Shown here one piece after another: positions 4,580-19,361 of a DNA stretch of 20,210 nucleotides. The first letter of the stretch is position 1. The number at the start of each line of letters is the position of its first letter. This stretch comes from a virus. The DNA lies in IMG/VR virus record IMGVR_UViG_3300035698_010002, positions 1-20,210 of that record. One strand, written 5' to 3'. The position numbers and the translations under genes were made by a program. The notes beneath the pieces are model-generated. The model was not told the origin of the DNA. It was given only the letters and a program-made list of their open reading frames with translations, and did not search any database.

Positions 4580-5227
4580 ATGCATTGGTCGAAAAATCCA
4601 AAAATTAGAGAAAAAGTATTAAAAAAAATAAGCGAAAGTAATATTGGAAGAATTTCACCAAGAAAAGGTGTTAAACTTTCTAAAGAAATAAAAAATAAAA
4701 TAAGTAAAAGTAAAAAAGGTCAAATCCCATGGATAAAAGGAAAACATCACACAAAAGAATCAAACAAAAAAAATAGCGAGACTCACAAAAAAAATTACAT
4801 AAAAGAATTACATCCAAATTATGGAAAAAAATTAAGTAAAGAAATTTGTAAGAAAAAAAGCAATTCAATGAAAAAAGCATATGAAGATGACAAAATGCCT
4901 CATATGAAAAAGGTTTGGAAAGATAGTAATAAAAGATGGCTAGGTGAAAATAATCCTAGATGGTCTGGCGGAAGATATGAAAATAGAGCCGGATATGTAA
5001 TGGTCCATGATGATAAAAATAGATGGAGAGTAGAACATAGAGTAGTAGTTGAAAGAATAATAGGTAGAGAATTAAAAAGAAGTGAAACTATTCATCATAT
5101 AAATGAAATAAAAAATGATAATAGAAAAGAAAATTTATATTATTTTCAGAATGATAGCTTGCATAAAAGACATCATGGATTAAAAAATAAGCCAATATTA
5201 AAATCTAATTTATATTTGATTAAATAA
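4580..5227 (+). CDS. NUMOD3/HNH free-standing homing endonuclease
   Basis: A 215-residue, very lysine-rich protein. The N-terminal ~75 residues contain NUMOD3-like DNA-binding modules: SESNIGRISPRKGVKLS, then ISKSKKGQIPWIKGKHHT. Similar elements recur near residues 75-135 (HPNYGKKLS, ENNPRWSGG). The C-terminal part is an HNH_3-type nuclease core with VEHRVVVERIIGRELKRSE, His172-His173 (IHHIN), KNDNRKENL and a terminal LHKRHHG. Such enzymes nick or cut an allele lacking the insertion and are copied in by repair. It has its own promoter and sits between two tail structural genes. Codon use is even more A-rich than that of its tail-gene neighbours, consistent with separate acquisition. Confidence 0.9.
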   Translation: MHWSKNPKIREKVLKKISESNIGRISPRKGVKLSKEIKNKISKSKKGQIPWIKGKHHTKESNKKNSETHKKNYIKELHPNYGKKLSKEICKKKSNSMKKAYEDDKMPHMKKVWKDSNKRWLGENNPRWSGGRYENRAGYVMVHDDKNRWRVEHRVVVERIIGRELKRSETIHHINEIKNDNRKENLYYFQNDSLHKRHHGLKNKPILKSNLYLIK

Positions 5228-5266: not shown

Positions 5267-6418
5267 ATGGGTAAAACAATTAATACATTAGTTGCAGGAA
5301 ATGATATTCTAGCTTCTGAACTCAATACAAATTTAGAAAGTGTTCAAAATAATTTTGGTGGTGATGCAACAGATGGAGTATTAAATGTGGCTGCAGGTAC
5401 AACAACTTTAGATATAGGGAATGCATCTGTGTTTATAAAAGATTATACTACTATGACAGTTGCTGGCGGTGCTACTTTAGCTTTTCAAAATCCTGCAACG
5501 ACAGGTACTTTAGTAATATTAAAATGCAGAGGTGCTGTTGATATTTCTGGTGCTATAAATTTAAGTGGGATTGGTGGTGCGAAAGGGGCTGGTGGTGCAG
5601 GAGCTGATGGAACAGGAGCAGCGGCAGGCGATGGTACAGACGGAACTCAAGCTATTTTAATTTTAGATGATACGACTACCCATTTTGGCGATAAGGGAGA
5701 TAAAGGAACTGCTACTGGTGGATCAGGGGGTACTGCTGGTGCAATTTATACAAATAAATTTTTATATGTTACTCCAAGTGCATCTAGAGCGACTAGAAAA
5801 TCTTATCACTTAACTCCTGGTTCTGGAGGTGGTGGCGGGGGCGGAGGTCATTCTATAGCTGGAGGAGGAAATCCTGGTGGAAGCGGTGGCGATGGTGGAA
5901 ATGGAGGCGGTGCTTTAATTATAGAGTGTGCAGGCACTTTGGATTTTACGGGTACGATTGATTTAGGTGGCGATGTTGGCACTGCTGGAGATAATGTGGC
6001 TGGAAGTTATGAAAATGCAGCTGCAGGCGGTGGCGGTGGAGGGGGTGCATCAGGACAAGCATTAATAATTTATAATGCTGTAGGAACTAATACGGGTACT
6101 ATAACGGCTGACGGAGGGGCTGGAGCTGCAGGTGGCGATAATTCTGGCAGTGCTAGTGGCGTAGGATTAGCTGGCGGAGGTGGTGGTGGAGCTGGTGGAG
6201 GAGTATACGCTGGAGCTGGTGGAGCTGGTGGAGCTGGTGGTAATCAACAGCAAAATGGAGTTAATGGTTCGAACGCAGGTGGTATTGGTGCTGGCGGTGG
6301 AGCTGGTGGTGGCGGTGGTGCTGCTGGAGGCAGTGGATCTACAACAGGCGGAATAGCAGGAACTGGTGGAGCAACTGATAGTGATAATTATTTGATTGTA
6401 GAAAATACTATGTTTTAA
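5267..6418 (+). CDS. Polyglycine-rich tail adhesin/receptor-binding-like protein
   Basis: A 383-residue protein. Residues 1-100 form a mixed-sequence anchor (ILASELNTNLESVQNNFGG, then a beta-rich TTLDIGNASVFIKDY). From about residue 100 onward the chain is dominated by glycine runs, including eight consecutive Gly near residue 190 and a GAGGAGGAGG block near 320. Short hydrophobic strands such as GALIIECAGTLDF and GQALIIYNAVG separate the glycine segments. Polyglycine-II helix bundles are known from phage adhesins (S16 gp38-type), where loops between glycine strands bind the receptor. The alternation of glycine blocks and short strands suggests a similar scaffold (inference). Locally GC-rich, short-unit tandem repeats (9-bp GGAGCTGGT near 6212-6238) could vary in number. 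Host-recognition role is inferred from position and composition. Confidence 0.65.
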   Translation: MGKTINTLVAGNDILASELNTNLESVQNNFGGDATDGVLNVAAGTTTLDIGNASVFIKDYTTMTVAGGATLAFQNPATTGTLVILKCRGAVDISGAINLSGIGGAKGAGGAGADGTGAAAGDGTDGTQAILILDDTTTHFGDKGDKGTATGGSGGTAGAIYTNKFLYVTPSASRATRKSYHLTPGSGGGGGGGGHSIAGGGNPGGSGGDGGNGGGALIIECAGTLDFTGTIDLGGDVGTAGDNVAGSYENAAAGGGGGGGASGQALIIYNAVGTNTGTITADGGAGAAGGDNSGSASGVGLAGGGGGGAGGGVYAGAGGAGGAGGNQQQNGVNGSNAGGIGAGGGAGGGGGAAGGSGSTTGGIAGTGGATDSDNYLIVENTMF

Positions 6419-6754: not shown

Positions 6755-8563
6755 ATGCCTAAAAAAAACTACGGATTAATAATCGAACCAGCACCGATAG
6801 AAGATTATGTATTTTTAGGAAGTAATAGTAAAGTAGCGAATAAAATATTAATTCCTGATGGAAATTGGTATGAGTATTTAGTTAGATTTGAAAAACAAAA
6901 AAGATTATTCGATACTTGGAACTGTTTTCCTTATGATACAGAAGTTTTAATGGAAGATTTTACAACTAAAAGAATATCAGAAATAAAAGTTGGAGAATAT
7001 GTAATGACACATATTGGAAGGAAGCAAAGAGTAAACGCAGTAATGAAAAGAGAATATGATGATTATATTTATGAAATAAAAGTGAAAGGCATTTATGATA
7101 CTATTCAATGTACAAATGAACATCCAGTATTAACTGAAAATGGATGGAAAAAAGCTAAAGATTTAAAAACAACTGATAGAGTTTGTATTCCAAAAATAAA
7201 TAAAATAGTAGAAGATAAAACTATTTATGAAGTTGAAAAAAATAAAGATTTTTTATGGTTATTAGGTTTTTATTTAGCGGAAGGAAGTTTAGGAAAAAGA
7301 AAAAATAAAATTGTTAATAAAAATAAAGCAGTTAGAGGAAGTGGTGGTAATAGTGGACAAATAGAATTTTCTGTTTCTATTGAAGAAGTAGATTATATAA
7401 ATAAAGTTATAGAAATTTGTAATAATTTATTTGGAACTAAGTTTACAGTTAATAAACATAAAGATAGTAAGTCAGCGGTTATCAGAGGTTATAATGTTTT
7501 TTTGAGAGATTTGTTAGAAGAACTTGGAAATGTTATATGTGATAAGAAAGAATTAGATAAAAGATTAATGTTTTTAGATCCAAAATTACAATTAGAAATA
7601 GTTAAAGGTTGGCTTGACGGTGATGGTTGTTATCAGAAAGAAAAAGGACGAATAATAGGTGTTAGTACTTCTGAAAAATTAATACAACAAGTGTATAGAA
7701 TATTATTAAGAAATAATATAAAAAGTAATACTAATAAAAGAAAAAAACAAGAAAATAGAAAAGATGTGTTTACTTTAGAATTATATGGTTTAGAAATAAA
7801 TAAAATATTTAATTGGAATTTAAAAAATATTAGAAAGTCTAATTATCAAGAAAGTAGAGCTAAAAAGAATCAAGATAATAAATATTTATATCAAAAAATT
7901 TCTAAAATAACAAAGTCAAAAAATGCTAAACATAAAAAAAGTAATAATAAAATAAAAAATGTATATAATATAGAAGTTAATATAGATAATACTTATATTG
8001 TTAATAATGTAGCAGTTCATAACTGCGTTGCCTTCTCTGCTTGCAATGCTTTAGAAGTTTATTTTAAGTATTTGATAAAGAATAATTTATTGTTATCAAG
8101 TAATATTGAATGGCTAACTAAGAAAGGTTATTTAGTAAATGGAGAGGTTAATTTTTCAGACAGACAAGTAGGTATAAATTCAAACACTAAAGTAGGTGTC
8201 GGTAATACAGGGAGTCGAGTTGCTAATGGTATGTATTATTTTGGATTGATACCAGAACAGATGTTACCGTTTACAGACGATATGCCGGAGAGTGAATATT
8301 ATAATAAGAAGGCAATAACTTTAGAAATGAAAGAACTTGCTCTAGAGTTTAAAGAAAGATTTAATATTCATTTTGAAGTTGTGTATGCTAAGGATTTTGA
8401 AGAAGCTTTGATGTATTCTCCGCCTCAGGTTTATGTAAATGCTTGGATAAAGAAAGATGGTATTTACATTAACACAGTAGACAAATGGAATCATGCAGTT
8501 ATTAAATATAGAAGGACAACAAAACAAATATTAGATCATTACGAACCGTTCTTAAAACTTTAA
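6755..8563 (+). CDS. Papain-like cysteine peptidase precursor interrupted by an intein
   Basis: A 602-residue precursor. Exteins are residues 1-56 and 424-602; splicing would join …LFDTWN to CVAFSACNALE…, giving a 235-residue papain-like (C1-type) peptidase. The joined CVAFSACNALE is the equivalent of papain's CWAFSA active-site helix, with Cys424 (Cys57 after splicing) as nucleophile. His580 in KWNHAVIKY is the general base, and ILDHYEPF corresponds to the motif-III region. The unspliced form lacks an intact active-site helix. In phages such peptidases may act at the tail tip or on cell-surface protein; the position between adhesin and holin-like gene fits a surface or lysis role (inference). 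The reading frame ends prematurely at …FLKL; the family-like continuation is in the -1 frame and runs into the 8629 ORF. Confidence 0.85.
   Translation: MPKKNYGLIIEPAPIEDYVFLGSNSKVANKILIPDGNWYEYLVRFEKQKRLFDTWNCFPYDTEVLMEDFTTKRISEIKVGEYVMTHIGRKQRVNAVMKREYDDYIYEIKVKGIYDTIQCTNEHPVLTENGWKKAKDLKTTDRVCIPKINKIVEDKTIYEVEKNKDFLWLLGFYLAEGSLGKRKNKIVNKNKAVRGSGGNSGQIEFSVSIEEVDYINKVIEICNNLFGTKFTVNKHKDSKSAVIRGYNVFLRDLLEELGNVICDKKELDKRLMFLDPKLQLEIVKGWLDGDGCYQKEKGRIIGVSTSEKLIQQVYRILLRNNIKSNTNKRKKQENRKDVFTLELYGLEINKIFNWNLKNIRKSNYQESRAKKNQDNKYLYQKISKITKSKNAKHKKSNNKIKNVYNIEVNIDNTYIVNNVAVHNCVAFSACNALEVYFKYLIKNNLLLSSNIEWLTKKGYLVNGEVNFSDRQVGINSNTKVGVGNTGSRVANGMYYFGLIPEQMLPFTDDMPESEYYNKKAITLEMKELALEFKERFNIHFEVVYAKDFEEALMYSPPQVYVNAWIKKDGIYINTVDKWNHAVIKYRRTTKQILDHYEPFLKL
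6923..8023 (+). mobile_element. Intein with LAGLIDADG (DOD) homing endonuclease, 367 residues
   Basis: The boundaries are read directly: Cys1 at codon 6923-6925 (N|CFPYDTEVLMEDF, block A), block B TNEHPVL (Thr-x-x-His-Pro), and terminal His-Asn at 8018-8023 followed by Cys+1 (8024). Endonuclease blocks C and E are LLGFYLAEGSLG (~170) and IVKGWLDGDGCY (~285). Block F is NVYNIEVNIDNTYIV and block G is VNNVAVHN|C. All splicing residues needed for a class 1 intein are present (Cys1, block B Thr/His, penultimate His, terminal Asn, Cys+1), so it is predicted to be active. The two acidic LAGLIDADG residues (E in LAEG, D in LDGDG) are present, suggesting a live endonuclease. A+T content is visibly above that of the flanking exteins. 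Confidence 0.97.
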
Positions 8564-9082: not shown

Positions 9083-9107
9083 AACCCGTCATTCTGGCGG
9101 GTTTTTT
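9083..9107 (+). terminator. Rho-independent terminator of the late operon
   Basis: AACCCG (9083-9088) pairs with CGGGTT (9098-9103). The stem extends inward by a T·G and a C-G pair to a 5-nt loop, and a T run at 9102-9107 follows. It is placed right after the last late gene, before a promoter-containing gap. Confidence 0.9.
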
Positions 9108-12394: not shown

Positions 12395-12468
12395 AGCGGA
12401 GGAGAGCAGTCTGGTAGCTCATCTGGCTCATAACCAGGAGGTCGGAGATTCAAATCCTCTCTCCGCAA
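12395..12468 (+). tRNA. tRNA-Met(CAT), initiator-type
   Basis: A 74-nt cloverleaf: acceptor AGCGGAG/CTCCGCA, D-arm GAGC-AGTCTGGTA-GCTC, anticodon arm TCTGG-CTCATAA-CCAGG with anticodon CAT at 12429-12431, and T-arm GGAGA-TTCAAAT-CCTCT. Initiator hallmarks are present: no Watson-Crick pair at 1-72 (A1·A72) and the A11-U24 purine-pyrimidine pair. The D-loop is identical to that of bacterial tRNA-fMet as I recall it. Deviations: only two of the three usual anticodon-stem G-C pairs (position 29-41 is U-A), an A53·C61 mismatch in the T-stem, and no encoded CCA (the 3' end reads A73-C-A). Confidence 0.93.
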
Positions 12469-12666: not shown

Positions 12667-13053
12667 ATGGAAATTAAAAAATGCAATAAATGTAAAAAAA
12701 ATAAACCAGTAGATGATTTTTATTGGCGTTCTAATTATGGAATACCGCACCCACATTCTCCATGTAAAGATTGTCATAATGAAGATTCTAGAAAAAGAAA
12801 TAAAAAATATAGATATGATGCATTAATGTATTATAGTAATGGTAAATTAAAATGTGATTGTTGTGGAGAAAATATTTATGAATTTCTTGCTATTGACCAT
12901 ATAAAAGGTGGTGGTAATAAGCATAGAAAAAAAATGACTGAAATGATATATACTTTTTTAAGAAGAAATAATTATCCTGATGGTTATAGGGTCTTGTGCC
13001 ATAACTGTAATCAGGCTATAGGCTATTATGGAAAATGTCCACACAAAAAATAA
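12667..13053 (+). CDS. HNH homing endonuclease inserted in the HAD gene
   Basis: A 128-residue HNH protein. The N-terminal zinc ribbon has CNKCKKNKPVDDF and CKDCHNE. The HNH core begins with CDCCGENIYEFLAIDHIKGGGNKHRKK (Asp-His in DHI) and ends YRVLCHNCNQAIGYYGKCPHK, providing the Asn and closing cysteines. The DHIxGGGNKHR…LCxNCN…CPH layout is a familiar family of small phage and organelle-type HNH nucleases. It carries its own promoter. Its 3' end overlaps the start of the intact HAD gene by 26 bases. It is placed between two diverged copies of the same gene start, as expected after homing. Confidence 0.88.
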   Translation: MEIKKCNKCKKNKPVDDFYWRSNYGIPHPHSPCKDCHNEDSRKRNKKYRYDALMYYSNGKLKCDCCGENIYEFLAIDHIKGGGNKHRKKMTEMIYTFLRRNNYPDGYRVLCHNCNQAIGYYGKCPHKK

Positions 13054-13402
13054 TAAAAAAAGACTTGTTGTTGCATTTGACGTAGATGATTGTTTAATTG
13101 TTCCAAATGTTGCTTCTGGTTTTGGTAATGATACTCCTAATTATGAAACTATTGCGATTTTAAAATGGTTTCAAAAACAAGGTGCTAAAATAATTATATG
13201 GAGTGGAAGTGGTGTTGACTGGGCTAAAACTTGGGCTGAGAAGTTAGGACTAGAAGCAGATGAATATCCAAGAAAAGGAGAAATAGAAGTTGATATAGCT
13301 TTCGACGATTGTGATGTTAAACTTGGAACTGTTAATGTAAAAGTAAAAAGAATTAATAATAGCATCAGCAGAGAAGATTGGAATAAGAATAAAAGAACTT
13401 GA
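13028..13402 (+). CDS. HAD-like phosphatase (nucleotidase or PNKP-like)
   Basis: A 124-residue protein with HAD motif I FDVDDC (nucleophile Asp18, acid Asp20), motif II IIIWSGSG and a C-terminal FDDCDVKLG acidic motif that would bind Mg2+. The small size (no large cap) resembles phage nucleotidase or polynucleotide phosphatase-like HAD proteins. A role in nucleotide or nucleic-acid end metabolism fits the neighbouring replication genes (inference). The chosen ATG lies within the HNH gene's last codons; the region before residue 12 is not homologous to the truncated copy, so the true start is uncertain. Confidence 0.75.
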   Translation: MENVHTKNNKKRLVVAFDVDDCLIVPNVASGFGNDTPNYETIAILKWFQKQGAKIIIWSGSGVDWAKTWAEKLGLEADEYPRKGEIEVDIAFDDCDVKLGTVNVKVKRINNSISREDWNKNKRT

Positions 13403-13427
13403 CTTATTTTTAAATATAATATATAAT
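13399..13427 (+). promoter_or_regulatory. Sigma70 promoter giving a near-leaderless transcript
   Basis: TTGACT (13399-13404), a 17-bp spacer and TATAAT (13422-13427). The next gene's ATG is at 13434, exactly where transcription is expected to start (about 7 bases after the -10), so the mRNA would be leaderless or nearly so. Confidence 0.82.
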
Positions 13428-13433
13428 TAAGAC

Positions 13434-13580
13434 ATGAAGAAACAAATAAAAGCACAGCTAGTAGAAAAGCCTGTTGCATGGGAAAGTCCAAATTTTGTCA
13501 AAGATTTTTGGTTTCATATTATGGATGGGATACCATTAATGAGAAGTCCGAAACATAAAAAAGTTAATTTATTAAAATAA
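13434..13580 (+). CDS. Small hypothetical protein on a leaderless mRNA
   Basis: A 48-residue basic ORF (MKKQIKAQLVEKPVAWESP…, ending KHKKVNLLK) with an aromatic centre (NFVKDFWFHIMDG). No family recognised. Support comes from the strong promoter placed at its ATG and the 6-nt spacing to the next gene. Confidence 0.5.
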   Translation: MKKQIKAQLVEKPVAWESPNFVKDFWFHIMDGIPLMRSPKHKKVNLLK

Positions 13581-14609: not shown

Positions 14610-15287
14610 ATGACAAACTACAAAGATTATGAGCCAGCACAAAGTGGGGGTTGGTTTAATCTCAAAGACGGAGAAAACAAAATCAGAATTGTTTCAGGTT
14701 TTGAAGCATTCGGAAGACATTATGATAACGAAACAAGAAAACCAATAACTTGTATTGGCTTTGATGATGGTTGTGAATATTGTGCAAAGGCTAAAGAAGC
14801 TTTTGATGCGATGAATCTGTTAAAAGAAGGTACTCAAAATCCTCCAACCCCAGAAGAAAAGGTATCTATTGATGAGGCTTATAAAGTGTATGTTTCATTA
14901 AAATCTAAAGTTCAGTTCATGACTTGGGTAATTGATAGAGCTGATGGTCAGGTTAAATTAATGAGTTACGGGTCAATGATTCAAGACCAATTATCAGATC
15001 TTGCTAAGACAACAGATTACGGATTTGAAGATGCTCCTGGATATGATATTACTATAACTCGTTCAGGGAAAGGATTAGATACAAAGTATGCAGTTATTCC
15101 AGCTAGACAAGATACTCCACTTACAGAAGAAGAAACATTGGTTATTAATGAAGAAGCAAAAGATTTGAAAGGAATTATTGATAAGATGAAGGAAAAAGTA
15201 TTTCCTACTGTTCAAGAAGAAGCTCCTCCAGTTACAGCTAAAGAAGAAGGAAAAGAAGATATTAAAGTAGCGGATATCCCTTTCTAA
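14610..15287 (+). CDS. gp32-like single-stranded DNA-binding protein
   Basis: A 225-residue protein resembling phage gp32-type ssDNA-binding proteins. The N-terminal part has an aromatic strand (SGGWFNLKDGENKIRIVSG) and a probable zinc site of His37, Cys48, Cys55 and Cys58 (CEYCAKAKEAF). A central beta-rich region follows (KVQFMTWVIDRADGQVKLMSYG, then YDITITRSGKG). The C-terminus is acidic and ends KVADIPF. The DIPF tip matches the peptide that bacterial SSB uses to recruit partner proteins, suggesting this phage protein can dock the host SSB interactome (inference). It sits between a RecB-like nuclease and HNH/replication genes. Confidence 0.72.
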   Translation: MTNYKDYEPAQSGGWFNLKDGENKIRIVSGFEAFGRHYDNETRKPITCIGFDDGCEYCAKAKEAFDAMNLLKEGTQNPPTPEEKVSIDEAYKVYVSLKSKVQFMTWVIDRADGQVKLMSYGSMIQDQLSDLAKTTDYGFEDAPGYDITITRSGKGLDTKYAVIPARQDTPLTEEETLVINEEAKDLKGIIDKMKEKVFPTVQEEAPPVTAKEEGKEDIKVADIPF

Positions 15288-15604
15288 TGAAAAATAATTT
15301 TACTGAAAAAGATAGAGAGTTATTCTGGAACAATTATGAATGTTGGGTTTGTGGAAAAAATTGTTGGGATGCTTTACACCATATAACAAGAAGAGGGGAC
15401 GGTGATTCTAAGCTTGAATCATCCCCCCTCAATGCTGGACCGATATGCAATTACCCTTGTCATATCGGTAACGCTTTACATTCGGACGAACAACAAAAAA
15501 GATTCTTACAAAAGACTTTGTTTTATCTAGAGAAGCAAAGATATAAATTAACTGATAAGGACAAGGAGTTTATGATTAAGTATAAAAAATATTATGAAAA
15601 TTGA
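15287..15604 (+). CDS. HNH-type nuclease, probably recombination-related
   Basis: A 105-residue protein that starts on the last base of the preceding stop (TAATG). It has CWVCGKNCWDALHHITRRGD (Cys19/Cys22, His31-His32), SSPLNAGPICNYPCH (Asn49, Cys54, Cys58-His59) and NALHSDEQQKRFLQK. The CxxC…HH…N…CH layout is an HNH/ββα-metal fold. Coupling to the SSB gene suggests a phage recombination or resolvase function rather than a homing role. Exact family not determined. Confidence 0.68.
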   Translation: MKNNFTEKDRELFWNNYECWVCGKNCWDALHHITRRGDGDSKLESSPLNAGPICNYPCHIGNALHSDEQQKRFLQKTLFYLEKQRYKLTDKDKEFMIKYKKYYEN

Positions 15605-15875: not shown

Positions 15876-15904
15876 TTGACAGTATAAAATATTCTTGTTA
15901 AAAT
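15876..15904 (+). promoter_or_regulatory. Strong extended -10 promoter for leader RNA 1
   Basis: A consensus TTGACA (15876-15881), a 17-bp spacer, TG at 15896-15897 and TAAAAT (15899-15904). Predicted start near 15911, just upstream of the pseudoknot, so the structured RNA would form the very 5' end of the transcript. Confidence 0.8.
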
Positions 15905-15918
15905 GGTTATATAGTTAA

Positions 15919-15993
15919 TTAACCGTCAGACACAAAACCCATTTGTTAAGTGGTTTCCCTGACGGTTAGCCACTAGGCAGATGGGTTTTGTGT
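15919..15993 (+). ncRNA. Pseudoknotted leader RNA, element 1
   Basis: Stem B: ACACAAAACCCATTTG (15930-15945) pairs with CAGATGGGTTTTGTGT (15978-15993), one U·G, and extends by two more wobbles. Stem C: AGTGG (15949-15953) pairs with CCACT (15970-15974), leaving an A·A mismatch between B and C. The 14-nt apical loop contains CTGACGGTTA (15959-15968), perfectly complementary to TAACCGTCAG (15920-15929) just 5' of the hairpin. The result is a long hairpin whose loop closes back on the upstream strand. It lies 10 nt before the HNH start at 16004. Element 2 at 16728 has the same design. Confidence 0.85.
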
Positions 15994-16003
15994 TAACAAA
16001 AAT

Positions 16004-16429
16004 ATGAATGATACAAAAAAATGCGTTTATTGTGGCGAATATGCTAATACAATTGATCATATAATACCAATTAGTTATTATTATTCTGGTAAAAGAACAG
16101 GTAAACATTTAACTACAGAATATGGAAAAGAAAATTTAGTTGATTGTTGTAAAGAATGTAATAGTATTGCATCTAATAAAGTTTTTATTGATTTTTATAA
16201 GAAAAAAGATTATATTCAAAAAAAATTAAAAATAAAATATAAAAAAGCTGTGAATATGCCTTATTGGTCCGATGAAGAAATAGAAGAAATTGGTATATTA
16301 TTAAAAAAAGAAATAAAAATACAACAATTAGCAAGAAAATGGATTTTAAACAGAATAAATTATCCCGTTGAAATGTATCCAGTAATAGAATTTAACAAAG
16401 AGTTAAAGAAATTTTTAGATACATTTTAA
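16004..16429 (+). CDS. HNH homing-type endonuclease
   Basis: A 141-residue protein: CVYCGEY (Cys7/Cys10), NTIDHIIPIS (Asp18-His19), ENLVDCCKECNSIASNKVF (Asn and closing Cys pair) and a basic C-terminal DNA-binding part (DYIQKKLKIKYKKA, then LARKWILNRI). The order CxxC…DHIIP…N…CxxCN is a standard HNH core (McrA-like). It is preceded by a strong promoter and the pseudoknotted leader. A/T-heavy codons resemble those of the other two free-standing HNH genes. A homing element is likely, although no split gene is visible on either side. Confidence 0.85.
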   Translation: MNDTKKCVYCGEYANTIDHIIPISYYYSGKRTGKHLTTEYGKENLVDCCKECNSIASNKVFIDFYKKKDYIQKKLKIKYKKAVNMPYWSDEEIEEIGILLKKEIKIQQLARKWILNRINYPVEMYPVIEFNKELKKFLDTF

Positions 16430-16471
16430 TTAAATAATCGCTTAGAACCGCATTTTAAGCTCAAAAAAAAT

Positions 16472-16663
16472 ATGGAAAAAGTATCATTTATAGCATCACT
16501 TCCAGACGCTCATCGTCAAGCTATTTCTTTAAATGGAGATGGGTCAGCTACTATTAAATTAAATACGTCAGCAGACCAAGTTAAAAACATAGTTGCGTTA
16601 ATGGCTTTGACAGAAGTTCCTCTTAAAGTAACTGTTGAAATTGACAGATCGGATATAGATTAA
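16472..16663 (+). CDS. Conserved small phage protein
   Basis: A 63-residue protein (SFIASLPDAHRQAISLNGDGSATIKLNTSADQVKN…) with a beta-strand pair followed by a helix (VKNIVALMALTEVPLKVTVEI). It looks well conserved in design and is less A-rich than the adjacent HNH gene. Function unknown. The 42-base gap before it has a weak GCTTA/TAAGC hairpin. Confidence 0.65.
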   Translation: MEKVSFIASLPDAHRQAISLNGDGSATIKLNTSADQVKNIVALMALTEVPLKVTVEIDRSDID

Positions 16664-16668
16664 TACAC

Positions 16669-16697
16669 TTGACTTTTTTAAAAAAATAATATATAAT
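16669..16697 (+). promoter_or_regulatory. Sigma70 promoter for leader RNA 2
   Basis: TTGACT (16669-16674), a 17-bp spacer and TATAAT (16692-16697); predicted start near 16704. It drives the second pseudoknotted leader and the replication genes behind it. Confidence 0.83.
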
Positions 16698-16727
16698 TAA
16701 AGTAACGAATAAATTTATGCATCAAAA

Positions 16728-16819
16728 AACATCGTCAAAATTAGAATATAGAAGGCTGGTAATTGCAAACCTTGGTGGTGCATTTGACGATGTTACCAAG
16801 AGAGGCAATTATCAGCTTT
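16728..16819 (+). ncRNA. Pseudoknotted leader RNA, element 2
   Basis: Stem B: GCTGGTAATTGC (16755-16766) pairs with GCAATTATCAGC (16805-16816), one G·U, with three further outer pairs to 16819. Stem C: CTTGGT (16771-16776) pairs with ACCAAG (16795-16800). The apical loop (16777-16794) holds TTTGACGATGTT (16783-16794), perfectly complementary over 12 bp to AACATCGTCAAA (16728-16739) upstream. The topology is the same as element 1 with different stem sequences. TTTTTGTGTTTT follows stem B, so premature termination after a ~110-nt RNA is also possible. The next ATG is at 16845. Confidence 0.85.
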
Positions 16820-16844
16820 TTGTGTTTTAATATATTTTAAAAAT

Positions 16845-17069
16845 ATGGATAAAATAAATTCAAGTGGTGATAGAATTGCATTAGAGCAATATATAGTAAC
16901 GTTACAAATAATTAAACAGTTTTCTTTTGATACAAAAAAAGAATTAGCAATTAAACTAGAAGAAAAGATAGATAGTCTTATTAATGTTTGTGGAGACGAA
17001 TTTAAAAAAACTGAAGAATTTAAAGAATTAATAGAATATTTAGAATTTGTAACTAAAATGAACATATGA
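16845..17069 (+). CDS. Hypothetical protein behind leader RNA 2
   Basis: A 74-residue, acidic and mainly helical protein (ALEQYIVTLQIIKQFSF, KKELAIKLEEKIDSLINVCGDEF). No family recognised. It overlaps the next start by four bases (ATGA), so it is the first cistron of the replication operon. Confidence 0.62.
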   Translation: MDKINSSGDRIALEQYIVTLQIIKQFSFDTKKELAIKLEEKIDSLINVCGDEFKKTEEFKELIEYLEFVTKMNI

Positions 17070-17788
17070 GTACATCTATAAAACCAAATTATTATTCTCA
17101 TGATTTTTATGCCAGAAGAGACCCTAAAATTGTTGCTTTATGTAGTGAATTTGGAAATGAAGGGTATGGAGTTTATTGTAAATTGACAGAAATAATGCAC
17201 GAACAGGGCGGAAAGTTAAAAAAGTTTCCAAAACTTTACTACGCTATAAGCATTGACATAGGAATTGATGAAATCTTGTTAACGAAGCAAATCGAAGCAA
17301 TGCTTAAAGATTATTTATTGTTAGATCAAGATGAAAACTTCATTTGGTCTAATAGAGTTTTAACTAATATTAAACAAATAACTGAATGTTATCAGAAAAA
17401 ATCTATGGCTGGTAGAATAGGTGGTTTAAAATCTGGGCAAGTTCGTTCGAAGCAAAATGAAGCAGTGCTCGAAGCAAACGAAGCAAACGAAGCAAATAAA
17501 ACTAAACTAAATAAAACTAAACTAAATAATATATATACCCTATATCAATTAAAAATCCATAAAGGGTCTAGATTAACAGAAGGGTCTAAAAAGAAGATTG
17601 CTAGTCGGCTATTGGAGTTTTCTGAGGATGAACTTAAAACAGCCATCAATAATTTTTCTAAAGACTCTTGGTGGATGAAGAATAATAGTGCTAGAGGTGT
17701 TGCGTGGTTCTTTCATACAGAAGAACGTATTGAACAATTTATTAATTTAAAGCCTAACAAGTCTGGTGGCTTAACAGTAATAAAATGA
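17066..17788 (+). CDS. DUF4373-type putative replication initiator / helicase loader
   Basis: A 240-residue protein. The N-terminal ~100 residues match the DUF4373 (Lin1244/Lin1753-like) pattern: NYYSHDFYARRDPKIVALCSEFGNEGYGVYCKLTEIM, then LLLDQDENFIWSNRV and a SMAGRIGGLKSG linker. A low-complexity middle (EANEANEAN, KTKLNKTKLN) is encoded by DNA direct repeats. The C-terminal ~75 residues resemble a DnaD/replisome-organiser tail (LTEGSKKKIASRLLEFSEDELKTAINNF, then WFFHTEERIEQFIN). Such genes lie before DnaB-type helicases and often contain the phage origin, as here. The ATG overlaps the preceding stop. Role in replication is inferred from domain order and neighbours. Confidence 0.78.
   Translation: MSTSIKPNYYSHDFYARRDPKIVALCSEFGNEGYGVYCKLTEIMHEQGGKLKKFPKLYYAISIDIGIDEILLTKQIEAMLKDYLLLDQDENFIWSNRVLTNIKQITECYQKKSMAGRIGGLKSGQVRSKQNEAVLEANEANEANKTKLNKTKLNNIYTLYQLKIHKGSRLTEGSKKKIASRLLEFSEDELKTAINNFSKDSWWMKNNSARGVAWFFHTEERIEQFINLKPNKSGGLTVIK
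17283..17525 (+). repeat. Iteron-like repeats, candidate replication origin
   Basis: CGAAGCAA occurs six times: 17283, 17293, 17448, 17470, 17479 and 17488 (the last three spaced 9 bp), with a further GAAGCA at 17459. Immediately after, ATAAAACTAAACTAA is repeated perfectly in tandem (17496-17510, 17511-17525), then a pure A/T stretch (to 17536). Initiator sites next to an A/T-rich unwinding element inside an initiator gene is the lambda O-type origin layout. Confidence 0.65.
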
Positions 17789-17976
17789 AGTATATAATTC
17801 TAAAAGATAAAACATTTATTAAGATAAGCAATGAACAGTACAAAGCTGTTTTAGATGCTAAGAACGATGATCAAAATAGTTTTGTTATCAATGAAGAATA
17901 TATTCCTTTCAGTTCTGTATTCCGAATAACAAATGAACAAAATTTTTATAAATATTATGAAAGCAAATGGATATAG
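17785..17976 (+). CDS. Hypothetical small protein
   Basis: A 63-residue ORF coupled to the upstream gene by ATGA and overlapping the helicase start by 10 bases. It reads MKYIILKDKTFIKISNEQYKA… and looks like a small beta-rich protein with a central VINEEYIPFSSVFRI strand pair. No family recognised. Sitting between initiator and helicase it might modulate loading, but this is only position. Confidence 0.6.
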   Translation: MKYIILKDKTFIKISNEQYKAVLDAKNDDQNSFVINEEYIPFSSVFRITNEQNFYKYYESKWI

Positions 17977-19361
17977 AAAATAAACCACAACCCTATAATT
18001 TAGAAAATGAACAAAGAGTGCTTGGCGGATTAGTTGGAAGTACGATTAAATTTTTAGATGTTGCTAGTATTGTTAATGCTGAAGATTTTTATTTTGAAAA
18101 TCATCAAACTATTTTTGCTACCATAAAATTTTTATTTGAAAGAAATAAGGATATAGATATTATATCTGTGTCTGGTAAGTTAGAACAAAAAAAACAATTA
18201 GAAGATATTGGCGGAAGAACTTATTTAGTAAAATTAGTTAACACTGTTATAACAGGATCTGGATTAATTAATGTCGCAAAAAATATTCAAAATCAAGCAA
18301 CGTTAAGAAAGATAATAATATCTTGTGAAAAGGTTAAAGATAAAGCATATGAATCTGATTTAGATGACACAGACAAAGTATTGAACGAGTACAATGATGA
18401 AGTTTTTAAAATATCTAATGATTATTTAAATAAGACAATTGAAGAAACCCCAGGATCTGACGAACTAATAACAAAGTTAGAAGATGAAATGAAGAAGTTT
18501 AAGAATAATGAATTTTCTGCTTATAAGACAGGTTTTAAAGAATTGGATAGAATAACGCAAGGATTAATGATCCCTAATATCTGGATAATAGGCGGATTTA
18601 GTGGAACAGGTAAAACATTTTTTACTCTGGATATGTTAATGGGCATGATGGAGAATGGTGCTAGACCTATATTATTTTCAACAGAAAATTCTGCTACAAG
18701 AAACATTTTAAGAATGATTGGTTGCAAGACAGGCATATCAGAGATGATGTTATTAAAAGGTAATATTGAAAATGAAACAATGTTAGATAGAATAGAACTT
18801 TTAAAATGTAAGATAGCTGATTACGATTTGCAAGTATATGATAATGTTTTTAGAACTGACCAGATGAGGGTTTTAATTCAAAAACACAAAAGACAGAATA
18901 AAAGCAATGTAGTTGTTATAGATTATATTCAACTTATTAATCCGCATATAACAGATTTGTATGCTAGAATGGCAGATGTGTCACAACAGATTGCGATGTT
19001 TTCAAGAGAGCTTGGAGTAGCAGTAATTGGAGTCAGCCAGATAAGTAATGAGGAAGCAAGGCGGAAAGACATTGACGATATAATGAGTTTCAAAGGGGCA
19101 GGCGAATTAGTTGCAATAGCTGATGTTGGTATTTGGTTAAGACGTATGAAAGACGATAATACAAAGATGACAGCTTTTGTTAAAAAGGTTAGGCACGGAA
19201 TACCAGGCAATGTTAATTTTGATTTCTTTACTCATGAGAATATGGAAAAATATAATTGTTATCTAAGAGAAGCTAAAATTGAAAATCAAAATATCAGCAA
19301 CAAGGAAACAGATAACAGCGAAGAAGAAAGTAATCCGATTGATGATATTGAATATAATTAA
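17967..19361 (+). CDS. dnaB: DnaB-like replicative DNA helicase
   Basis: A 464-residue protein, full length for the family. The N-terminal domain (to ~150) begins with QPYNLENEQRVLGGL, the usual DnaB opening. Residues 185-200 (YKTGFKELDRITQGL) lead to the RecA-like domain, with Walker A GGFSGTGKT at ~209-217, Walker B VVVIDYIQLI at ~314-323, then VSQQIAMFSRELGVAVIGVSQ and a FKGAGELVAIADVGIWLRR segment. It unwinds the fork and is loaded by the initiator encoded two genes upstream. The C-terminal tail (from ~435) is acidic and of low complexity. The symbol refers to function; naming by phage homologue is not possible here. Confidence 0.95.
   Translation: MDIENKPQPYNLENEQRVLGGLVGSTIKFLDVASIVNAEDFYFENHQTIFATIKFLFERNKDIDIISVSGKLEQKKQLEDIGGRTYLVKLVNTVITGSGLINVAKNIQNQATLRKIIISCEKVKDKAYESDLDDTDKVLNEYNDEVFKISNDYLNKTIEETPGSDELITKLEDEMKKFKNNEFSAYKTGFKELDRITQGLMIPNIWIIGGFSGTGKTFFTLDMLMGMMENGARPILFSTENSATRNILRMIGCKTGISEMMLLKGNIENETMLDRIELLKCKIADYDLQVYDNVFRTDQMRVLIQKHKRQNKSNVVVIDYIQLINPHITDLYARMADVSQQIAMFSRELGVAVIGVSQISNEEARRKDIDDIMSFKGAGELVAIADVGIWLRRMKDDNTKMTAFVKKVRHGIPGNVNFDFFTHENMEKYNCYLREAKIENQNISNKETDNSEEESNPIDDIEYN

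Follow-up and report, generated by a model that had tools for sequence, protein, structure and literature searches.

Genomic layout of the E1 and E2 leaders

The DNA analysed here was the IMG/VR virus record IMGVR_UViG_3300035698_010002, whose whole stretch of 20,210 bases is referred to as the window. Two structured leader elements, E1 (15920-15993) and E2 (16728-16831), were located on the + strand. E1 precedes an HNH endonuclease gene, the start codon of which lies 10 nt after the hairpin, and E2 precedes a 74-aa ORF starting 13 nt after its hairpin and followed by replication genes. The features of the region are as follows.

15876..15904, + strand: E1 promoter, TTGACA - 17 nt - TAAAAT, 11/12 matches
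15920..15929, + strand: E1 strand A (TAACCGTCAG), pairs with 15959-15968; identical in the homologue L173
15930..15947, + strand: E1 strand B, 18 nt, directly 3' of A, pairs with 15976-15993
15949..15954, + strand: E1 strand C (AGTGGT), pairs with 15969-15974
15959..15968, + strand: E1 strand A', inside the hairpin loop (topology scan)
15969..15974, + strand: E1 strand C' (GCCACT), immediately 3' of A' (folding and topology scan)
15976..15993, + strand: E1 strand B', with the U-tract TTTTGTGT(T) at its end (terminator score)
16004..16429, + strand: HNH endonuclease gene behind E1 (Pfam HNH, PHROG 36777)
16669..16697, + strand: E2 promoter, TTGACT - 17 nt - TATAAT, 11/12 matches
16728..16739, + strand: E2 strand A (AACATCGTCAAA), pairs with 16783-16794
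16740..16766, + strand: E2 strand B, 27 nt, directly 3' of A, pairs with 16805-16831
16771..16776, + strand: E2 strand C (CTTGGT), pairs with 16795-16800
16783..16794, + strand: E2 strand A', inside the hairpin loop (topology scan)
16795..16800, + strand: E2 strand C' (ACCAAG), immediately 3' of A' (folding and topology scan)
16805..16831, + strand: E2 strand B', with the U-tract TTTTTGTGTTTT within it (terminator score)
16845..17069, + strand: 74-aa ORF behind E2, no Pfam or PHROG match
17066-17788, + strand: Lin1244-type replication initiator behind E2 (family search)
17967-19361, + strand: DnaB-like helicase behind E2 (family search)

Direct reading and folding confirmed the original prediction that both elements have the strand order A-B-C-A'-C'-B' at these places. 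The order is exact and leaves no spare bases, as A adjoins B and A' adjoins C' in both elements. The earlier description of the stems held for topology and position, but stem B was longer than described, with 18 pairs in E1 and 27 in E2, where six pairs of B:B' are G-U. The core CGTCA/TGACG, proposed as a shared feature, was confined to E1, E2 and L173; the remaining members have different A strands, and the core is no signature of the family. The common ending TTTTGTGTT does occur in E1 and E2, where it makes up the 3' base of stem B and looks like an intrinsic terminator's U-tract. That the two elements are copies of one sequence element was not demonstrable, since what they have in common is the topology, the promoter type and a terminator-like tail. 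A scan of the 20.2 kb record for further copies, as had been proposed, revealed no third one.

Evaluation of the topology against shuffled sequences

The original prediction had named a dinucleotide-shuffle control as the test that could refute it. In a strict topology scan, none of 300 shuffled windows reached E1 or E2, which were by far the best sites of the window itself. With a looser scan, none of 100 further shuffles equalled either element. These scans replaced a first one without length limits, in which shuffles reached -39 kcal/mol and no discrimination was obtained. The nested hairpins alone also stood out from shuffled sequences (z = -7.3 for E1 and -7.1 for E2).

Folding energies, compared on segments of slightly unequal length, were -41 kcal/mol on the + strand and -30 kcal/mol on the - strand for E1, and -45 and -22 kcal/mol for E2. 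The + strand folds better because several pairs in B and C are G-U, and therefore the structure belongs to the + strand RNA.

Related elements in other phages

Pattern and topology searches revealed eight further elements in six other phage contigs (L173, L279a, L279b, L314a, L314b, L389, L105 and L186). A pattern of core and tail (CGTCA, TGACG, TTTTGTGTT) matched at least 119 stretches, and among the matches listed L173 was a clear E1 homologue, in which A and B were nearly unchanged. A pattern based on stem B retrieved L279b and L314b, and a topology scan of the whole contigs then produced a second element in each, L279a and L314a. L389 was found by a topology scan of other loci. L105 and L186 were found by a scan that also demanded a promoter, which gave 11 distinct hits in 4.2 Mb but just one in shuffled sequence of the same length; of the 11, L092 and L286 were judged to be chance. 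The sequences of A, C and the loop vary between members.

With 100 shuffles per contig, none reached L173, L279a, L279b, L314a or L389, and two reached L314b; L105 and L186 are more weakly supported statistically than the other members. Both linkers were zero in five of the ten members (E1, E2, L173, L279a and L314a), compared to approximately 7% of shuffled hits. Across 1.1 Mb of further low-GC phage contigs, L389 apart, the topology occurred at the shuffled rate, and the device is therefore rare. That three of the seven phages carry two elements is notable. The remaining four carry one each in the sequence analysed, and the proposal that E1 and E2 act jointly as a regulatory pair was not supported.

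The pairing appears to be under selection, as originally predicted, because compensatory changes could be observed among homologues. In helix C, E1 has AGTGGT/GCCACT and L173 has AATAGT/GCTATT, so that two pairs are altered on both sides and are still paired; this count refers to a hand alignment, MAFFT placing the gap elsewhere there. L279b and L314b align almost gap-free, and on this alignment, with the structure given, two pairs of helix A were changed on both sides and none was broken. Sliding the partners by 1-3 columns abolished the helix A signal. A column shuffle gave 110/500, a value that cannot become significant with only two sequences, so the covariation of this pair is taken as support and not as a formal R-scape result.

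The phages bearing the elements have only a few distantly similar proteins in common; therefore, the elements were not simply inherited by near relatives. Close relatives of the window were obtained neither with the DnaB or replication-initiator proteins as queries nor by blastn of the region. No element was found in L077 and L078, two phages whose initiators are 47% identical. Isolated phages gave no BLASTn match to E1 or E2, and relatives of the two L314 elements were limited to short weak matches in 311 genomes of that order.

Several other candidates were set aside. A topology hit in L096 was coding sequence without excess structure (z 0.07) and was dropped. L386, L368/L375, L406, L092 and L286 contained A-like complements, but their folds were unfit or chance-like, and they were not counted. 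The L386 site, near 6230-6340 on the reverse strand, has a 12-nt strand with a match in a hairpin loop 53 nt further on (TAGCAGAGTCTA); its final fold is unlike the group, and it is located between convergent genes.

The predicted absence of the family from Rfam was supported. Rfam 15 (E-value limit 1) returned only a tRNA for the window, and only tRNAs and one sub-threshold microRNA match for L173, L279, L314 and L389. In a literature search of partial coverage, no known phage leader of the same design was found.

Promoters and terminator-like tails

Each leader had been predicted to lie right behind a promoter, and near-consensus promoters were indeed present before both E1 and E2. In each of the first seven members (E1, E2, L173, L279a, L279b, L314a and L314b), a near-consensus sigma-70 promoter precedes A by 5-30 nt. 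Over the 60 bases upstream of A, the best promoter of sigma-70 type scored 10 to 12 of 12 in these seven, six of which have an exact TTGACA, while a random position in the same contigs reaches a score of 10 with a probability of 0.011 and 11 with 0.006. L389 has no sigma-70-type promoter of such quality before A; its box TAnnTTTG, judged by eye, is presumably of the Bacteroidota-like type. As L105 and L186 were selected for their promoters, these are not independent evidence.

The hairpins were further evaluated using a d'Aubenton-Carafa-type terminator score, with modern energies and a cut-off of 0. Only three + strand sites in the window scored above 0, namely 9085-9101, E2 and E1, compared to two sites in total in five shuffled windows. 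E1 (15938-15985 plus tail) scored 4.3 and E2 (16755-16816 plus tail) 11.0. L279a, L314a and L389 were also above the cut-off, L173, L279b and L314b were under it, and L105 and L186 have no U-tract. The tails of E1, E2, L279a and L314a are independent evidence, whereas those of L173, L279b and L314b are not, these members having been found with tail-containing patterns. The terminator-like look of the hairpins was missed in the original prediction, as was the competition of A:A' with them.

Alternatively, the elements might be ordinary intrinsic terminators with chance matches between their loops and upstream sequence. This explanation agrees with the observation that, elsewhere, most CACAAAACCC..GGGTTTTGTG stems are plain hairpins and have no matching strand upstream, and with the background rate of the topology in the 1.1 Mb of other contigs, L389 apart. 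The shuffle controls, the compensatory changes, the promoters and the strand asymmetry disfavour it, and it is hardly credible.

A strong promoter and a terminator-like end could also delimit a small RNA gene, the released RNA acting in trans. The final fold leaves A free at the 5' end and A' exposed in the loop, not paired together, so that such RNAs could also bind one another. However, E1, E2, L173 and L314b have a gene start within approximately 20 nt and no promoter of its own between, and L105 and L186 lack the terminator-like end; this explanation is considered unlikely.

Genes downstream of the elements

The predicted link to replication genes was borne out by several members. Besides E2, L389 precedes a replication initiator and a DnaB-like helicase, L105 a Lin1244-type initiator, and L186 an SSB-like protein ending in DDLPF (assignment by eye), with a Shine-Dalgarno-like AAGGAG between the hairpin and the gene start. 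The HNH endonucleases behind E1 and L173 belong to different families. L314a (L400 4641-4815) comes from a phage-like contig belonging to a Methylobacter MAG, and a tRNA-Met gene begins 15 nt after the element ends; the genes behind L279a, L279b and L314b have no assigned function.

Start codons 10-30 nt behind several of the hairpins would suit a translational operator in the 5' UTR, in which the pseudoknot, or its switch to the hairpin, would govern ribosome access and might be bound by a replication protein of the phage, for example an SSB, in the manner of T4 gene 32. The L186 arrangement, including its AAGGAG, is consistent with this, as is the gp32-like SSB encoded in the window, and RNA hairpins do repress homing endonuclease translation in T4-like phages (PMC3014915). 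An operator would, however, have no start codon to control where L314a stands before a tRNA; the start codons behind E1 and E2 lie outside the helix, a gp32-family SSB occurred in only one of six records searched, and the terminator-like tails are left unexplained. Translational control is thus rated as somewhat unlikely.

A type III toxin-antitoxin system (pseudoknot RNA, terminator, toxin gene) was set aside, the downstream genes not being toxin-like in general family searches. As a separate observation, E2 contains a 37-codon ORF (16717-16831) with its ATG near the predicted transcript start and its stop at the hairpin end (MHQKTSSKLEYRRLVIANLGGAFDDVTKRGNYQLFVF). Short ORFs near the 5' end are also present in L279b, L314b, L389 and L105, and none in E1 or L186; all of these could be chance or leader peptides. 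Reading the elements themselves as translated ORFs fits E2 only, with its 37 codons, and fails for E1.

Order of folding and proposed mode of action

Folding of growing prefixes was computed for eight members. The best nested fold held the complete A:A' helix up to the point at which the 3' arm of the hairpin had emerged in part or in full, after which the long hairpin replaced A:A' in the nested minimum-energy folds of all eight. In E1 the change takes place at 15983-15986, where the U-tract starts. The pattern that defines a metastable leader, an early fold giving way to a more stable later one, was therefore obtained in 8/8 members, as judged from nested folds only.

In E1 and E2, a single molecule probably cannot contain both A:A' and a fully closed B, because A adjoins B and A' adjoins C'. 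This exclusion is geometric and model-based, and L389, L105 and L186 have 24-29 nt between A and B; in these, A:A' and the hairpin could therefore coexist.

Pairing, covariation, promoter position, terminator-like hairpins and fold order were all computed, and from them we infer the following course. RNA polymerase would start a few bases upstream of A, and once A' is made, A:A' (10-12 bp) would pair. C' could then add C:C' on top, which would give an H-type pseudoknot whose linking strand is B. After synthesis of B', B:B' may zip onto C:C' and produce the long hairpin with its U-tract, a putative intrinsic terminator. If A:A' persists, polymerase would read through into the downstream gene; if B:B' wins in time, transcription would stop and an RNA of roughly 80-130 nt would be released. 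Polymerase speed or pausing might determine the balance, as might a factor binding A or the pseudoknot. The genes behind E1 and E2 would depend on read-through from their own or an upstream promoter, because a further promoter would not fit into 10 or 13 nt.

Pairing of the 5' end could alternatively protect the message, or the long hairpin could be an RNase III site, so that the element would be a signal for mRNA stability or processing. A lies at or near the predicted 5' end, and stems of 17-36 bp are plausible RNase III substrates. Neither idea, however, requires a loop that matches the 5' strand plus a U-tract, and the A:A' pairing is the better conserved feature; a role of this kind seems quite unlikely.

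The best fit is a promoter-proximal leader attenuator, in which a folding race would be run with A:A' as the transient antiterminator. The tRNA behind L314a disfavours translation as the general target, and the members without a U-tract, L105 and L186, speak against termination as the output of the whole group. Two readings would accommodate both: a mixed group, or a terminator added to the basic device. Because these cases pull apart, confidence in E1 and E2 as such attenuators was kept below one half, at a probability of about 0.42.

Comparison with known RNA elements

Transcription attenuators consist of a promoter, a leader, a terminator-like hairpin and a gene, and the elements have the same order. 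They differ from attenuators in that an overlapping antiterminator stem is absent, the strand that competes pairs with the loop of the terminator-like hairpin, and two members have no U-tract. The put RNAs of HK022 are two cis elements behind two promoters of one phage, as are E1 and E2. They consist of two adjacent hairpins that modify polymerase, and their structure differs from that of the present elements.

In hok mRNA, the MS2 maturation leader and H. pylori aapA3, a transient early fold likewise gives way to a more stable fold during RNA growth and times expression (PMC6733600, PMC6582335). Those systems act on translation or on folding into inert mRNA, whereas here the later hairpin looks like a terminator and the early helix is a 5' strand paired to the loop of the later hairpin. 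In the gene 32 leader of T4, T2 and RB69, a pseudoknot precedes the gene of a phage replication protein, an arrangement like that of L186 (PMC3014915). In contrast, the present elements have a 14-36 bp hairpin, a 5' end paired to the loop and a position directly behind a promoter, and their sequences change and their downstream genes are varied; the gene 32-type position, as leader of an SSB gene, was found in L186 only, E1 and E2 preceding the HNH gene and the 74-aa ORF. A 2010 review noted that the pseudoknot of T4 gene 32 may be the only one from a virus that serves translational autoregulation (PMC3014915). The translation-blocking hairpins of I-TevI and mobE are located at the start of HNH-type endonuclease genes, like E1 and L173 (PMC3014915), whereas here the start codon and ribosome site lie outside the helix and most members precede other genes. 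STAXI motifs (RF01728) are pseudoknots near SSB and other DNA-handling genes, as here, and unlike the present elements they are tandem repeats in Enterobacteriales with frequent UUCG loops (PMC2864571). No RF01728 match was found at E-values up to 1 in the window, L173, L279, L314 and L389.

HDV-like, hammerhead and riboswitch readings were rejected, as no core fits by eye and Rfam gave no match; for a riboswitch, the A, C and loop sequences also differ between members.

Elements of the E1/E2 type are considered a new form of metastable leader RNA. A wider and doubtful proposal is that they represent an unrecognised, topology-defined class of phage regulatory RNA, in which a promoter and a self-displacing 5' pseudoknot would serve divergent phages as a folding timer or speed sensor for genes of the replication module. 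As the topology is common to the members and little of the sequence is, current libraries would overlook such RNAs. A switch of this kind, if real, would be a very economical device, the 5' end pairing with the loop of the next hairpin and the race between two folds setting replication-gene expression. It would also show, in a natural setting, kinetic (metastable) RNA control exerted on phage transcription. The model is easy to test, as single and combined mutations of A and A' can be made.

Other features of the window

The strongest ordinary terminator-like site of the + strand was located at 9085-9101 (CCCGTC..GGCGGG, T6, score 16.1), and CCGTCA occurs within it as in strand A of E1. A promoter, TTGACT-17-TATAAT, was present at 13399-13434. 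An ATG (13434) follows so closely that the 48-codon ORF there probably has no leader. By eye, most gene starts in the record had no Shine-Dalgarno sequence. The tRNA found by Rfam at 12395-12468 (50.4 bits) was not reported by ARAGORN. Four HNH-like genes could be recognised in the 20 kb (4580-5227, 12667-13053, 15287-15604 and 16004-16429), two by family search and two by eye. Such a load of candidate homing endonucleases is unusually high. A 602-aa ORF at 6755-8563 resembles, by eye, an intein-interrupted protein, and a 178-aa stretch of it matches L394 at 42%.
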